DNA from: Halosolutus gelatinilyticus
Lineage (GTDB): Archaea; Halobacteriota; Halobacteria; Halobacteriales; Natrialbaceae
Length of the DNA stretch: 64,000 bases
Direction: 5' to 3'
Assembly (NCBI RefSeq): GCF_023028105.1
Contig: NZ_CP095491.1
Location: forward strand, 2,170,001-2,234,000
A program made the translations under genes and the position numbers. The notes below the pieces were generated by a model that did no database searches, was not told the DNA's origin, and saw only the letters and a program-made list of their open reading frames with translations. Positions 9,066 to 37,115 of the stretch are shown here, piece after piece; positions within the stretch are counted from its first letter, which is position 1, and every line of letters starts with the position of its first letter.

Positions 9066-9261
9066 ATAGCCTCAGTTGGTGAAGTGCGAGATTGTAGGTT
9101 TATGGGTACGCGGTCGCACTCACCGATCGTTTCAGGACGGAGAACTAACAGGTGGCAGGTGGAGAGTCGGGGTCCGTATTCGATCGGCTATCTGCGATCC
9201 GCCCACGTGGTTCCCTCGTAGCAACACATTCACGCGGCTCGCGATACTGCTTGCCGCAGGA
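9066..9261. other. Intergenic region upstream of PhoD
   Basis: The region holds the PhoD promoter at its left side and no credible gene. Short ORFs here are Arg/Ser-rich and cross the tRNA-like sequence to the right. Confidence 0.5.
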
Positions 9262-9401
9262 AGTGGGCCAACTCGGATTTGAACCACCTGAAGACGGTCT
9301 CACTTGCTTCGCTCGTGAGCATGCGTCTTCCGTACTCCAAATCCGAGTTGGATACACGTTTGACGCTCACGGCTCACTCCGTTCGCGTTGTTCGCGTCAA
9401 A
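9262..9401 (-). repeat. tRNA-Ile 3'-end mimic and double-hairpin module
   Basis: Read on the plus strand. A copy of the tRNA-Ile 3' end (9261-9285) is identical over 25 bases to 9401-9425. A hairpin follows with arms GAAGACG (9290-9296) and CGTCTTC (9324-9330) and an inner CTCAC/GTGAG stem. Next comes an inverted copy of the tRNA end (CAAATCCGAGTTGG, 9338-9351), then a second perfect hairpin TTTGACGC (9359-9366)/GCGTCAAA (9394-9401) touching the tRNA. In transcription terms the module lies immediately 3' of the tRNA. The same order of parts occurs next to tRNA-Gly at 33278-33384. Confidence 0.7.
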
Positions 9402-9403
9402 AG

Positions 9404-9477
9404 TGGGCCAACTCGGATTTGAACCGAGAGCCTCCACCTTATCAGAGTGGCGCTCAACCTGATTGAGCTATTGGCCC
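9404..9477 (-). tRNA. tRNA-Ile (anticodon GAT)
   Basis: 74 bases without encoded CCA. The acceptor stem is GGGCCAA/TTGGCCC with discriminator A. The D stem is GCTC/GAGC, the anticodon stem is CCACT/GGTGG with loop CTGATAA (anticodon GAT), and the T arm is CTCGG-TTCAAAT-CCGAG. All stems close. It decodes AUC/AUU. Confidence 0.95.
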
Positions 9478-13478: not shown

Positions 13479-14411
13479 TCAGTGGTCGCCGTTGACTTCC
13501 TCGCGCAGCGTCGCGAGTTCGACGACGCGCTCGGCGTGGGCGTTGTGCTGGTGGATCGACTCGTCGTTGGACTGTTTCATCGTGATCACCGCGTCGTCGG
13601 GCAGGTGATCGAACTCGTCGACGACGCCCTCGGCCATCGATCGGACGCAGTCCTCGACGAACTTCGCGTCCGCGTGGGCGGCGTAGGTCATGTGGTCCTC
13701 GTCCGGACGCTTCGCGAGGTTGTAGATCCGGGCGCTCATCGAGTCGCGGGCGATGTCGATGACGTCGTTGAGGTCGACGTCCGGGTCGCCGTTCGATTCG
13801 ACGGTCAGCGTCGCGTGGCCGCGCTGGGAGTGACCCGGCTGCGGTACTTCGTCGAGGAACTGGGTGATCGTCTCCTCTTCGACGCCTAAGTCTTCGAGGG
13901 TCTGTTTCGCCCGCGCGGCGGACATCCCCTGCGAGCACGGGCAGACGGTCATTCCGGTGACCGTGGCGCCGATCTCCTCGCGGGTCCCTTCCTCCGTGGC
14001 CGCCGCGGCCGCCACGATGTCGACGGTGTGCTGGGTTTCGCGATCGCTCTCGGGCGTCCGCTCGCGGCGCATGAACTCGGCCTCCATCGAGACCTCAGCG
14101 CGCGTGGTGTAGTCGTGTTTCTCGAGGAGCCGCTCGGCGGCGGCGCCACAGACCTCCTCGACGCGGTAGGCCTCGTCGCGGGTGGCGTCCTCCAGAATCT
14201 CGTCGATCACTTCCATGTTGCGGCTCATGTCCGCGCCCTTGCGCCACGCGGGGAGGTCGACGAAGACCTCGAACTCGGCGGTGAGGACGATCGGGCGCTT
14301 GTCCTCGCGGGCGATCTTGACGAGCTTCTCGACGCCGGTGACACCGACCTGGCTGAGGCCGACGGTGACCTCGGGTGACGTTGCCTGCACGTCCGGCAGC
14401 TGCTGAGTCAT
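13479..14411 (-). CDS. mptA: GTP cyclohydrolase MptA (FolE2 type)
   Basis: 310 residues from the ATG at 14411 ([10 protein letters not shown]). This enzyme catalyses the first step of tetrahydropterin synthesis in archaea, opening GTP to a cyclic dihydroneopterin phosphate with Fe(II) or another metal. The family features are visible: [17 protein letters not shown] at the start, [15 protein letters not shown], the metal-binding Cys region [33 protein letters not shown] and the C-terminal [11 protein letters not shown]. The length is normal. An upstream in-frame Met at 14420 is possible. The gene sits upstream of four copies of the dispersed promoter-like repeat, which read away from it. Confidence 0.92.
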
Positions 14412-31170: not shown

Positions 31171-31280
31171 TGCGCCGGCTGGGAGGTGGGTCCGATGGCG
31201 AGACGGCCGCGCTCACTTCGTTCGCACGCTGTGACTCGCGTGATGCAGCTCCGTCCGAGGCGCAGTTATGACTCACCTTT
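31171..31280 (-). repeat. Degenerate tRNA-mimic module without a tRNA
   Basis: 31171-31200 matches the tRNA-Gly-like segment at 33279-33308 at about 23 of 30 positions. 31239-31277 matches 33331-33368 at about 32 of 39 positions with one gap, including GGCGCAGTT-TGACTCAC. The parts are in the same order and orientation as the module beside tRNA-Gly, but no tRNA follows. Confidence 0.55.
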
Positions 31281-31542
31281 CTCGTTCGCTTCTCGCTGCG
31301 GGGTGGGTTCGGTCAGCGCACATACGTCGGGACGAGTCTCGGAAAAGGCTACCGAAGCGATCCCTGATTCTCCTGAGCGCGCTGACGACATACGTCACGA
31401 ACGGAGTCCTCGTGGCATCCGAATCGATCCCGGACGGCAGGTGACGCGCGTCGCCGTAAACCCTGCATATGATACTGATACTGATCAGCGTTCCACCGGC
31501 GAGGGGCCTACGGAATAAGTTCTCCAGCGCTCTCACCTCTTG

Positions 31543-31599: not shown

Positions 31600-32772
31600 A
31601 TGCCAGAAGACCCGAGGACCCGGAACGGACGGACACGGAGAGACACACTCAAGTACGGAAGTACGCTCGTTGGCGGAACGATACTCGCCGGATGCGTGAG
31701 CGGTACGGGGCAAGGGGACACGAACGAAGACGAGGGCGTGAATGCGTCACCAGAGAGCGAGTCGTACTCGGTGTCAATGGAACCGGTAGGAGAGGTCGAG
31801 TTCGACCGGATTCCCGAACGGTGGGTCGCATACGACGGCGGATACGCCGATATGGCCGTTGCACTCGGCCAGGCAGACGGGATCACCGGCATCGGCCACG
31901 CCCCCCGGTACTACACCTACGTCTACGACGAACTGCCCGGTGTAACCGTAGATCGCGAACAGATCGAGGCATATCCCGAAGTCCGGACGAAAGAGGAATT
32001 CTACGAACTCGACAACGACGTTCATCTGTACGATCCTCAGGTGCTCATCAACTGGTTCGACTGGAACGACGAGGACATCGACGAGATCGCCTCGAACGTC
32101 GCGCCATTTATCGGGAACTTGATCTTCCGACGCTCGGATGGATGGCACGACTACCGCTACTACACACTGTACGAGGCCTTCGAGAAGATCGCCGAAGTGT
32201 TTCAGCAACAGGAGCGCTACGAGGCGTTTGAGGAACTCCACAGCGAATTCATCGCGTCGATCCAAACCCGACTTCCACCGGCCGAGGAGCGTCCGCGAGT
32301 ACTGCTCACGTACAACGGAAATGAGGAGCCAGAGACGTTCTCACCGTATCGACTCATCGATAACGGAACGAGCAAAAAACAGTGGCTCGACCTCGGCGTC
32401 GAGGACGAACTCGCGGGGACGGGCGTCGAGAACCTCAGCACGGCGAACCGAGGGAAATTGGACTACGAGAATCTCCTCGAGGTCGATCCCAACGTGATTC
32501 TCATACGCGGTCACGACCGGAAATCCCCGGCAGAGTTCCGCGACACGGTTCTCGCGTATATGCAAGACCACCCCGTCGGGAGCGAATTGACCGCCGTCCA
32601 GAACGGGCGCGTCTACCGTGGCGGCTATCTCAACCAGGGGCCGATTCACAACCTGTTTCTCACTGAACGAGCCGCGAAGCAGATGTACCCCGAGGAGTTC
32701 GGCGACGTGACGGACGATACGGAACTGTTCGACCGCCAGCGAGTCGCAGATATCGTCACGGGAGAGTTCTAA
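31600..32772 (+). CDS. Iron-siderophore ABC transporter substrate-binding lipoprotein
   Basis: 390 residues. The signal NGRTRRDTLKYGSTLVGGTI, then LAGCVSG, is a Tat-type lipoprotein signal. The body follows the FecB/FhuD-like two-lobed binding fold: PERWVAYDGGYADMAVALGQ, then ADGITGIG, and near the end LLEVDPNVILIRGHDRKSPA. It binds ferric siderophore or heme outside the cell. No permease or ATPase gene lies next to it, so the importer must be elsewhere or was lost. Control by iron is supported by the two palindromes at 31543 and 31580. It sits between two tRNA-like modules, a setting typical of an inserted element. Confidence 0.85.
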   Translation: MPEDPRTRNGRTRRDTLKYGSTLVGGTILAGCVSGTGQGDTNEDEGVNASPESESYSVSMEPVGEVEFDRIPERWVAYDGGYADMAVALGQADGITGIGHAPRYYTYVYDELPGVTVDREQIEAYPEVRTKEEFYELDNDVHLYDPQVLINWFDWNDEDIDEIASNVAPFIGNLIFRRSDGWHDYRYYTLYEAFEKIAEVFQQQERYEAFEELHSEFIASIQTRLPPAEERPRVLLTYNGNEEPETFSPYRLIDNGTSKKQWLDLGVEDELAGTGVENLSTANRGKLDYENLLEVDPNVILIRGHDRKSPAEFRDTVLAYMQDHPVGSELTAVQNGRVYRGGYLNQGPIHNLFLTERAAKQMYPEEFGDVTDDTELFDRQRVADIVTGEF

Positions 32773-32800: not shown

Positions 32801-32985
32801 GTGATTGTCGGCGGCGGTATCGAAGGTCCCTCCATCGTGATTTTCACCGCCCGCCACGGACCGGATACGATCGTCATCGATGCTGGTGGGTCGATCCTTC
32901 GCCGGAATGCCCACCTCGAAACCTTCCCCGGCTTTCCTGCTGGCATCACCGCCGGACAGCTGATCGATCTCTTGGGCAGGTCGAT
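32801..32985 (+). pseudogene. N-terminal fragment of a FAD/NAD(P)-dependent oxidoreductase
   Basis: The frame reads VIVGGGIEGPSIVIFTARHG, then DTIVIDAGGSILRRNAHLET and FPGFPAGITAGQLIDLL. This is the N-terminal dinucleotide-binding (GxGxxG-like) part of a thioredoxin-reductase-like flavoprotein. The resemblance stops at about 32985 and the frame soon ends at 33070, so about four fifths of the gene is missing. The start is also unclear, with only a GTG at 32801. It meets an integrase fragment from the other strand at the break point. Confidence 0.6.
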
Positions 32986-32994
32986 CGTTTCGGA

Positions 32995-33125
32995 TCTATT
33001 CCATTGGATAGCATCCAGTCGACGAGCTTCCGCCGATGCTCTCGGTAGGTGCTTCGCTCCCCGGAATTGAGGCGTTTGGCTGACGGTTCGGGTACGAGGG
33101 TGATTTCCTCGAGTTCTTCACTCAT
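32995..33125 (-). pseudogene. N-terminal fragment of a haloarchaeal tyrosine integrase
   Basis: An ATG on the minus strand at 33125 opens MSEELEEITLVPEPSAKRLN, followed by STYREHRRKLVDWMLSNGID and PKRS. The 'YR.HR..L..W....GKDP' helix is the SAM-like N-terminal region of haloarchaeal site-specific integrases. The frame stops about 15 codons later without the catalytic domain. The fragment lies about 150 bases from the tRNA-Gly-like copy, as an integrase of a tRNA-targeted element would. The assignment is from motif memory and is moderately sure. Confidence 0.5.
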
Positions 33126-33277: not shown

Positions 33278-33384
33278 ATGCGTCGGCCGGGAGTTGAACC
33301 CGACGGCAAGATCGAACGTCGTGAGATCTTGCGTGATTCAATTCCCGCCGGGCGCAGTTGTGACTCACGGTCGTTCGTCACAAC
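33278..33384 (-). repeat. tRNA-Gly 3'-end mimic and double-hairpin module
   Basis: Read on the plus strand. A copy of the tRNA-Gly end (33278-33301) has 22 of 24 bases equal to 33385-33408. A perfect hairpin GCAAGATC (33306-33313)/GATCTTGC (33325-33332) follows, then an inverted copy of the tRNA end (33337-33356, 18 of 20 bases). A second perfect hairpin GTTGTGAC (33357-33364)/GTCACAAC (33377-33384) abuts the tRNA. The order of parts is identical to the module beside tRNA-Ile. Confidence 0.7.
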
Positions 33385-33385
33385 A

Positions 33386-33456
33386 TGCGCCGGCCGGGAA
33401 TTGAACCCGGGCTATGAGCTTGGGAAGCTCATGTCCTACCACTAGACCACCGGCGC
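33386..33456 (-). tRNA. tRNA-Gly (anticodon CCC)
   Basis: 71 bases, no encoded CCA. The acceptor stem is GCGCCGG/CCGGCGC with discriminator A. The D arm has TAGTGGTAGGA, the anticodon stem is TGAGC/GCTCA with loop TTCCCAA (anticodon CCC), and the T arm is CCGGG-TTCAATT-CCCGG. It decodes GGG. Confidence 0.95.
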
Positions 33457-37043: not shown

Positions 37044-37115
37044 GCCTGGGTAGCTTAGCGGTAAAGCGCGTCCTTGGTAAGGACGAGAGCCCGGGTTCAA
37101 ATCCCGGCCTAGGCT
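37044..37115 (+). tRNA. tRNA-Thr (anticodon GGT)
   Basis: 72 bases, no encoded CCA. The acceptor stem is GCCTGGG/CCTAGGC with discriminator T, the D arm has GCTTAGCGGTAAAGC, the anticodon stem is CGTCC/GGACG with loop TTGGTAA (anticodon GGT), and the T arm is CCGGG-TTCAAAT-CCCGG. It decodes ACC/ACU. No 3'-end-mimic module follows it, unlike the Ile and Gly genes. Confidence 0.95.

Follow-up and report, generated by a model that had tools for sequence, protein, structure and literature searches.

Directly behind the tRNA-Gly(CCC) gene of Halosolutus gelatinilyticus, a short stretch without genes carries two hairpins and two copies, one inverted and one direct, of the 3' end of that same tRNA gene, which raises the question of what is located there: a structured RNA that is transcribed with the tRNA, the scar of an integrated element, a passive product of repeat recombination, or a cassette that is gained and lost behind tRNA genes. 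tRNA genes are classic docking sites of mobile DNA, and the reason for this is still debated. We have analysed the locus within a stretch of 64,000 nucleotides (contig NZ_CP095491.1, positions 2,170,001 to 2,234,000), which we refer to as "the window", and we have compared it with related loci.

Conserved elements of the unit

The elements of the unit are listed in Table 1; on the strand of tRNA-Gly(CCC), i.e. towards falling coordinates, they follow each other in the order D1, HP1, I, HP2, D2. Both hairpins of the Gly unit are perfect over 8 bp (arms 33377-33384/33357-33364 in HP1 and 33325-33332/33306-33313 in HP2). When the 180 nt downstream of the tRNA were shuffled 2000 times, the best direct copy reached 17/24 and the best inverted copy 15/20; neither the 22/24 of the direct copy nor the 18/20 of the inverted copy was attained in any of them. 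The layout of this module that a preliminary description had given, with both hairpins and both copies, has been re-derived here.

Table 1. Features of the window that belong to, or accompany, the units behind tRNA genes.
Feature	Position	Strand	Remarks
tRNA-Gly(CCC), array host	33386-33456	-	ARAGORN and Rfam RF00005, 70.7 bits
D1, the copied sequence: last 24 nt of tRNA-Gly(CCC) (T-arm and 3' acceptor strand)	33386-33409	-	
HP1 of the Gly unit	33357-33384	-	core CGAAC-GACC-GTGAG, G.A/A.G pairs within the stem; class-wide motif
I, inverted copy of the tRNA-Gly(CCC) 3' end	33337-33356	+	18/20
HP2 of the Gly unit, GCAAGATC/GATCTTGC	33306-33332	-	aberrant; inner loop GTCGCAG..ACCGTC, otherwise usual, is absent
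D2, direct copy of the tRNA-Gly(CCC) 3' end	33279-33302	-	22/24
Decayed 5' end of a tyrosine integrase gene (MSEELEEITLVPEPSAKRLN...)	32979-33125	-	homologue: intact integrase at the tRNA-Gly(TCC) unit, L070
Decayed third unit	31182-31290	-	R1, 40 bits
tRNA-Ile(GAT), host of the second intact unit	9404-9477	-	ARAGORN and Rfam
Ile unit	about 9263-9403	-	HP1 ~9360-9402, I ~9337-9352, HP2 ~9290-9332, D2 9263-9284
Degenerate HP1-like remnant beyond the Ile D2	9137-9261	-	R1 23 bits, E = 0.003; usual array end

The module that had been noticed behind tRNA-Ile(GAT) is equally real, with an element order identical to that of the Gly module, and tRNA-Thr at 37044, named earlier for comparison, carries no module. 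At 13733-13812, a tRNA-Leu(GAG) is called by ARAGORN without support from Rfam, which is probably a false call.

The preliminary description had held that the Gly and Ile modules share architecture and not sequence, and this part of it has to be revised: the two are homologous. A covariance model built from such units, which we refer to as R1, scores the Gly unit, a member of its training set, with 65 bits and the Ile unit, located outside that set, with 64 bits, and the modules share sequence in the HP1 and HP2 cores. The units constitute one homologous family and do not merely share a layout. Across units, HP1 consists of a variable, compensating stem that flanks CGARC...GYGAG, while HP2 mostly consists of GTCGCAG...ACCGTC enclosing a terminal hairpin; both cores are kept across all isoacceptors and across the families of the haloarchaeal class. 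The inserts measure 55-190 nt and are gene-less, with a cassette of about 100 bp.

The structure covaries, as would be expected of a conserved cis-acting RNA: in 23 aligned units, 92% of the cells are paired, with 105 changes on both sides of a pair versus 36 in shuffled alignments and at most 19 in slid controls. Single-strand folding of four units yields z-scores of -4.4 to -6.5 and is strong both as DNA and as RNA; on nine unit-bearing loci, no Rfam family except tRNA attains its cut-off. A reading of HP1 as a kink-loop bound by L7Ae has been rejected, given that the pair inside the G.A pairs covaries between A-T (56) and G-C (52), i.e. as a Watson-Crick pair.

Almost without exception, HP1 and HP2 face the same way relative to the tRNA. 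In the stems, read in tRNA sense, G.T mismatches exceed A.C mismatches by 58:20 (p = 2e-5), and by 21:10 in a second set (p = 0.07); this excess is a weak indication in favour of the tRNA-sense strand and may be mutational, because nearly all of the G.T mismatches have the T on the 5' side. The terminal loop of HP2 is a GNA triloop in 204 of about 250 cases; the same frame yields one in 3/39 cases in the window and in 17% of cases far from tRNAs. GNA triloops form unusually stable DNA mini-hairpins, and for this reason folded single-stranded DNA is favoured, rather than proven, as the relevant molecule.

What the copies follow has been compared over a collection of 180 units from 36 isoacceptors. 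D2 has a mean identity of 95% to its own tRNA; the 12-mer of I that corresponds to the T-arm matches its own tRNA at 9.93 of 12 positions and other isoacceptors at 8.70 of 12 (p = 6e-29), and the acceptor half of I does not track its own tRNA (p = 0.21). As a general rule, I repeats the T-arm in inverted form over some 10-12 nt. That it copies the last 20 bases has been rejected as such a rule: the acceptor half goes untracked across the collection, so that Gly and Ile, with their long inverted copies, are exceptions. Among the cases in which D1 and D2 are not identical, I agrees with D1 40 times and with D2 25 times. Units at the same isoacceptor are more similar across genomes than units at other isoacceptors (0.684 vs 0.646). 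Near-identical units at different isoacceptors of one genome have not been found, so there is no sign of recent jumps between tRNAs; the idea of genome-specific bursts has also been discarded, the identity of units at different tRNAs within a genome being equal to that between genomes.

Distribution and anchoring at tRNA genes

Of 61 haloarchaeal genomes, 55 give matches to R1, a single genome containing as many as 46 units, and the few genomes that have none include G044, G045 and G046; in a phylum sample of Halobacteriota, matches occur in 21/24 haloarchaea and in 0/124 other genomes. In four fully mapped genomes, 138 of the 161 units are located downstream of a same-strand tRNA, mostly beginning 0-8 nt past the tRNA end, and at least one unit is present at 16/45, 30/46, 25/41 and 25/44 of the tRNAs, in arrays of up to five units. 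In the genome of the window, 14-17 of approximately 45 tRNA genes have their last ~22 nt repeated in direct orientation, mostly at 79-124 nt downstream, and the inverted T-arm is usually situated between the tRNA end and the direct copy.

The anchoring is also seen with a pattern that makes no use of tRNAs: HP2 alone, i.e. GAAGTCGCAGCG-N(10-36)-CGACCGTCTTC, searched over 84,980 species genomes, yields 102 matching stretches, and among the 80 of these 102 matches that were listed all but two are haloarchaeal. The fetched stretches hold 82 matches, six of which were set aside as too close to the end of a stretch; 63 of the 76 interpretable matches occur 41-276 nt behind a same-strand tRNA. Among the remaining ones, several are located behind a truncated tRNA end, and one Halorubrum group occupies a different locus: in L326, L333, L372, L373, L375, L385, L400 and L403 (mostly Halorubrum), the HP2 hairpin gagcacgGAAGTCGCAGCG..CGACCGTCTTCcggcggtgc stands at a conserved non-tRNA locus after gacgaggctggggaggtgtgaggctgcggt, possibly as another RNA or repeat family with the same hairpin. 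Two HP2-like hairpins ending in ..GCTTTTGATCG are likewise located away from tRNAs in the genome of the window (L112 and L113, G000:C1:3020643-3020771 and 3136412-3136504).

Turnover of the units and its possible causes

The stability of the units over time has been followed at 30 orthologous tRNA-Leu(TAA) loci from the genus of genome G040, where the upstream flanks of the pairs that were compared generally share about 80-98% identity. These loci carry no unit (one locus), one unit or two units. The empty locus L467 and the filled locus L461 are 82% identical further downstream, and the flanks of L471 (two units) and L482 (one unit) are collinear, at the same distance from the last D. Where the number of units is equal, their content may differ: L458, L459 and L460 have flanks that are 90-92% identical and units that are only 74-83% identical, the corresponding values for L474 and L481 are 90% and 60%, and whole cassettes differ between flanks of 88-92% identity. 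Four types of HP1 are found in numerous pairings with four types of HP2, and the breaks fall at the boundary of I and HP2 and at D. The orientation of HP2 is almost always constant, with the exception of L477 and L481, two of 37 units and from different species, where HP2 is inverted between I and D2; the matches to a pattern for inverted HP2 in a wider set proved to be false positives on inspection. Where the chromosome continues after the last D, it begins with the 5' half of an HP1 in 15/29 loci versus 0/145 control stretches, and in the tRNA-Leu arrays L432/L485, L435/L486 and L437/L472 the tRNA-distal unit is common and the proximal unit is different, which is a hint of polar addition.

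At tRNA-Gly(CCC), the orthologues that are located beside the same upstream gene (L041, L042, L044 and L046) carry no unit. Retention at orthologous genes, which would be expected of a conserved cis-acting RNA next to covarying structure, is therefore missing at Gly(CCC), and at Leu(TAA) the cassette is swapped; the conserved regulatory role that had been suggested is not supported, given this patchy presence at orthologous tRNAs and the exchange of cassettes while the flanks stay about 90% identical. We read the units as mobile or shuffling cassettes, because orthologues carry 0, 1 or 2 units, HP1 and HP2 recombine freely and HP2 is occasionally inverted; mobility in this sense of turnover is well supported.

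It is also relevant that some units adjoin integrative elements. At L070, a tRNA-Gly(TCC) locus from a different genus, an intact gene for a tyrosine integrase and a 2.8-kb element come after the unit. The element ends in a 43-nt tRNA repeat that extends as far as the anticodon loop, and behind this repeat there is another unit, almost identical to the first. The integrase has a match to Phage_integrase, and its closest relatives among phages are the integrases of the HSTV-2/HCTV type (~43% identity). At L071, too, a unit separates the tRNA from an integrase or element. In the window, the position equivalent to the L070 integrase is occupied by a decayed copy of the start of that gene (32979-33125), which places the Gly unit at the tRNA-proximal end of a decayed integrative element. 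The decayed unit at 31182-31290, which terminates in a Gly-tRNA-like sequence (31171-31194, 18/24), is probably the far end of the same degraded Gly element. Between these two ends, a 390-aa ORF at 31600-32772 resembles an iron-type ABC substrate-binding protein and is possibly cargo of the element.

The preliminary description had named nested integration as a way in which such copies might be explained; this is true of part of the Gly case, where the decayed integrase is located beside D2, and it does not extend to the family, since most units adjoin no integrase and the elements use the 43-nt repeat, which at prophage ends is already known from Haloquadratum (PMC3119063), whereas the D copies of the units stop at the T-arm (22-24 nt). 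The unit already stood behind the tRNA on the chromosome when the element arrived in L073 and L074.

The number of units per genome shows no correlation with the number of Phage_integrase genes (rho 0.07), and Y1_Tnp is absent from five module-bearing genomes (G000, G023, G040, G058 and G060), several of which are unit-rich; integrase dose and Y1 transposase have consequently been dropped as drivers. By blastn, phages gave no unit and plasmids gave one match, on a Natronorubrum plasmid; a scan of IMG/VR with the HP1 core gave 92 stretches, none of which is a unit by R1, and a related-locus search of genome contigs with the integrase gave no confirmed match. An excised form or a mobile carrier has not been seen in the phage, plasmid (apart from the one plasmid match) and viral-contig searches.

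The explanation that we prefer, and to which we assign about even chances, is that of a family of tRNA-anchored, gene-less cassettes that recombine at T-arm copies and are recognised as folded single strands. A cassette composed of HP1, I, HP2 and D would insert directly behind the tRNA gene; the tRNA would stay intact because D repeats its last ~22 nt, and the new D could act as the next site. Recombination between two D copies, in direct orientation, would gain or lose whole units, while recombination between D and I, in inverted orientation, would exchange or invert HP2. The recognised substrate would be the folded single strand in tRNA sense, by analogy with the attC sites of integrons, and the likeliest candidate for the enzyme would be a tyrosine recombinase encoded either by the host or by elements that integrate at tRNA genes. 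Unequal homologous recombination between D copies could also be the source of the gain and loss of units without a dedicated enzyme, and homologous recombination together with template switching could account for part of the rearrangement. The earlier argument that a shared architecture at unrelated tRNAs speaks for a mechanism is upheld, with a mobile or copying element as the best supported of the options it had offered. A more far-reaching version, in which a class-wide recombinase docks at T-arms in either orientation and constantly adds, removes and reshuffles gene-less, folded-strand hairpin cassettes at most tRNA genes, in the manner of an integron or shufflon, seems to us conceivable and rather doubtful.

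The units could alternatively act as RNA, i.e. as a structured 3' trailer transcribed with the tRNA, where I would pair with the T-arm (D1) or with D2 as a switch of folding or 3' processing, or from which an RttR-like small RNA would be released. Such a role agrees with the strong covariation on the tRNA-sense strand, with the fit of I to its own T-arm and its preference for D1 over D2, with the closer similarity of same-isoacceptor units across genomes, and with the annotation of rttR, in an equivalent position in E. coli, as a small RNA. We nevertheless hold it to be unlikely: the units are present at merely one third to two thirds of the tRNAs per genome and are patchy between orthologues, full cassettes are replaced between flanks of 88-92% identity, the copy number ranges from 0 to 5, HP2 is at times inverted, and the HP2 loops are GNA triloops instead of GNRA tetraloops.

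Even lower is the probability we give to the units being attachment-site ends of tRNA-targeting elements with HSTV-2-type integrases, left behind after excision or decay. Here, the position of the units in L070 and L071 and the decayed integrase next to the Gly unit are as expected, but the longer repeat at the far ends of the elements, the units of L073 and L074 that predate the element, the many units without an adjoining integrase and the independence of unit number from integrase number are not. Just as improbable, in our view, is an origin by repeats alone, in which the repeats would be created, homogenised and deleted by unequal recombination and by template switching during replication, at hairpins and at copies of the T-arm, with no recombinase and no function involved. 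The quasi-palindromic layout, the agreement of I with the local T-arm, the gain and loss at direct repeats and the inversions within short inverted repeats are all in line with such an origin, and Haloquadratum provides documented examples of deletions mediated by repeats, with a 22-bp partial duplication of a tRNA among them (PMC3119063); a purely passive process would, however, not preserve HP1 and HP2 cores throughout the class, a near-constant HP2 orientation and an enrichment of GNA loops.

Comparison with known systems

The cassettes resemble several known systems in part. Like integron arrays, they grow from a fixed site, have repeated sites between cassettes that are imperfect palindromes of one strand, and are combinatorial in content, a likeness that concerns the layout only; unlike them, they are gene-less, their fixed site is the end of a tRNA, and no integron integrase accompanies the array, as only some units adjoin an integrase, of the HSTV-2-like kind. 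With the shufflon of R64, operated by Rci, they have in common short segments that are bounded by copies of a single site in both orientations and are shuffled, and possibly also the inversion of segments, but the haloarchaeal segments are non-coding, an Rci-type enzyme has not been identified, and inversion is rare (2/37 units). As in the attL/attR sites of archaeal tRNA elements (HSTV-2, SNJ2 and others), the tRNA is made whole again by a copy of its 3' end, and an integrase gene sometimes adjoins; the copies of the units, however, are about 100 bp apart, measure 22-24 nt and not 43 nt, are joined by an inverted copy and two hairpins, and enclose no cargo, i.e. they are not repeats that flank an element with integrase or cargo. 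Haloarchaeal MITEs and PATEs are also short, non-coding, palindrome-bearing mobile repeats, whereas the units have a fixed target, the tRNA 3' end, with a duplicated tRNA end of 22 nt, and need no resident Y1 transposase; PATEs derived from IS200/IS605 are mobilised by Y1 without target duplication, in contrast to the D copies that flank the insert here. Terminal inverted repeats of the MITE type are not evident in the alignment of the units.

The closest look-alike is the tyrT/rttR locus of E. coli K-12 (L428), where tandem repeats directly behind the tRNA contain direct copies AATCCTTCCCCCACC... of its 3' end, with hairpins between them and a 10-nt stretch, GGGGAAGGAT, that is located between the copies and is complementary to part of the copy. 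It differs in being a single tRNA locus, with a repeat spacing of ~178 nt and 15/21 nt copied by direct alignment. R1 has no match in L428 at E <= 1, i.e. homology of the unit is undetected there, and the inverted stretch is not significant on a 15-mer test. In the same region (NC_000913, 1285900-1288500), both the tyrT-tyrV spacer and the rttR repeats include a complement of the tRNA end that is copied (in the repeats, GGGGAAGGAT/ATCCTTCCCC), and this complement could close a hairpin; we have found no earlier mention of this feature.

In the open literature, which was searched with subscription journals outside its scope, we have found no description of the units, only of the 22/43-nt prophage tRNA repeats; the class-wide, fast-shuffling family of tRNA-anchored structured cassettes is to that extent new. 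Its meaning lies in one third to two thirds of the tRNA genes of the mapped genomes carrying cassettes of fast turnover between stable flanks, which offers hundreds of natural replicates for finding the enzyme and the folded substrate, and in a link to the never-explained tyrT repeats of E. coli. Annotation is also affected, through false partial tRNAs and misread attachment sites, and the units are a potential marker for strain typing; if they were RNA, few of the tRNA-linked RNA elements known from archaea would be as widespread.

Some further arrangements were noticed at tRNA ends. In L065 (2023-2380; G019:C1:1401023-1401396), three copies of tRNA-Gly(CCC) occur with a spacing of ~143 nt, the second and third being 5'-altered hybrids with a hairpin within the first part. 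Directly behind tRNA-Met(CAT) of the genome of the window (L006, G000:C1:1885639 onwards), the sequence GGTTCAAATCCAAGGGGCGGCG resembles the 3' end of another tRNA. Lastly, L081, L086, L087, L033 and L079 contain a second type of tRNA-end repeat, in which no more than the last ~14 nt of the tRNA come after hairpin stretches CTCCCTGCGGTCGTTTGCCG....
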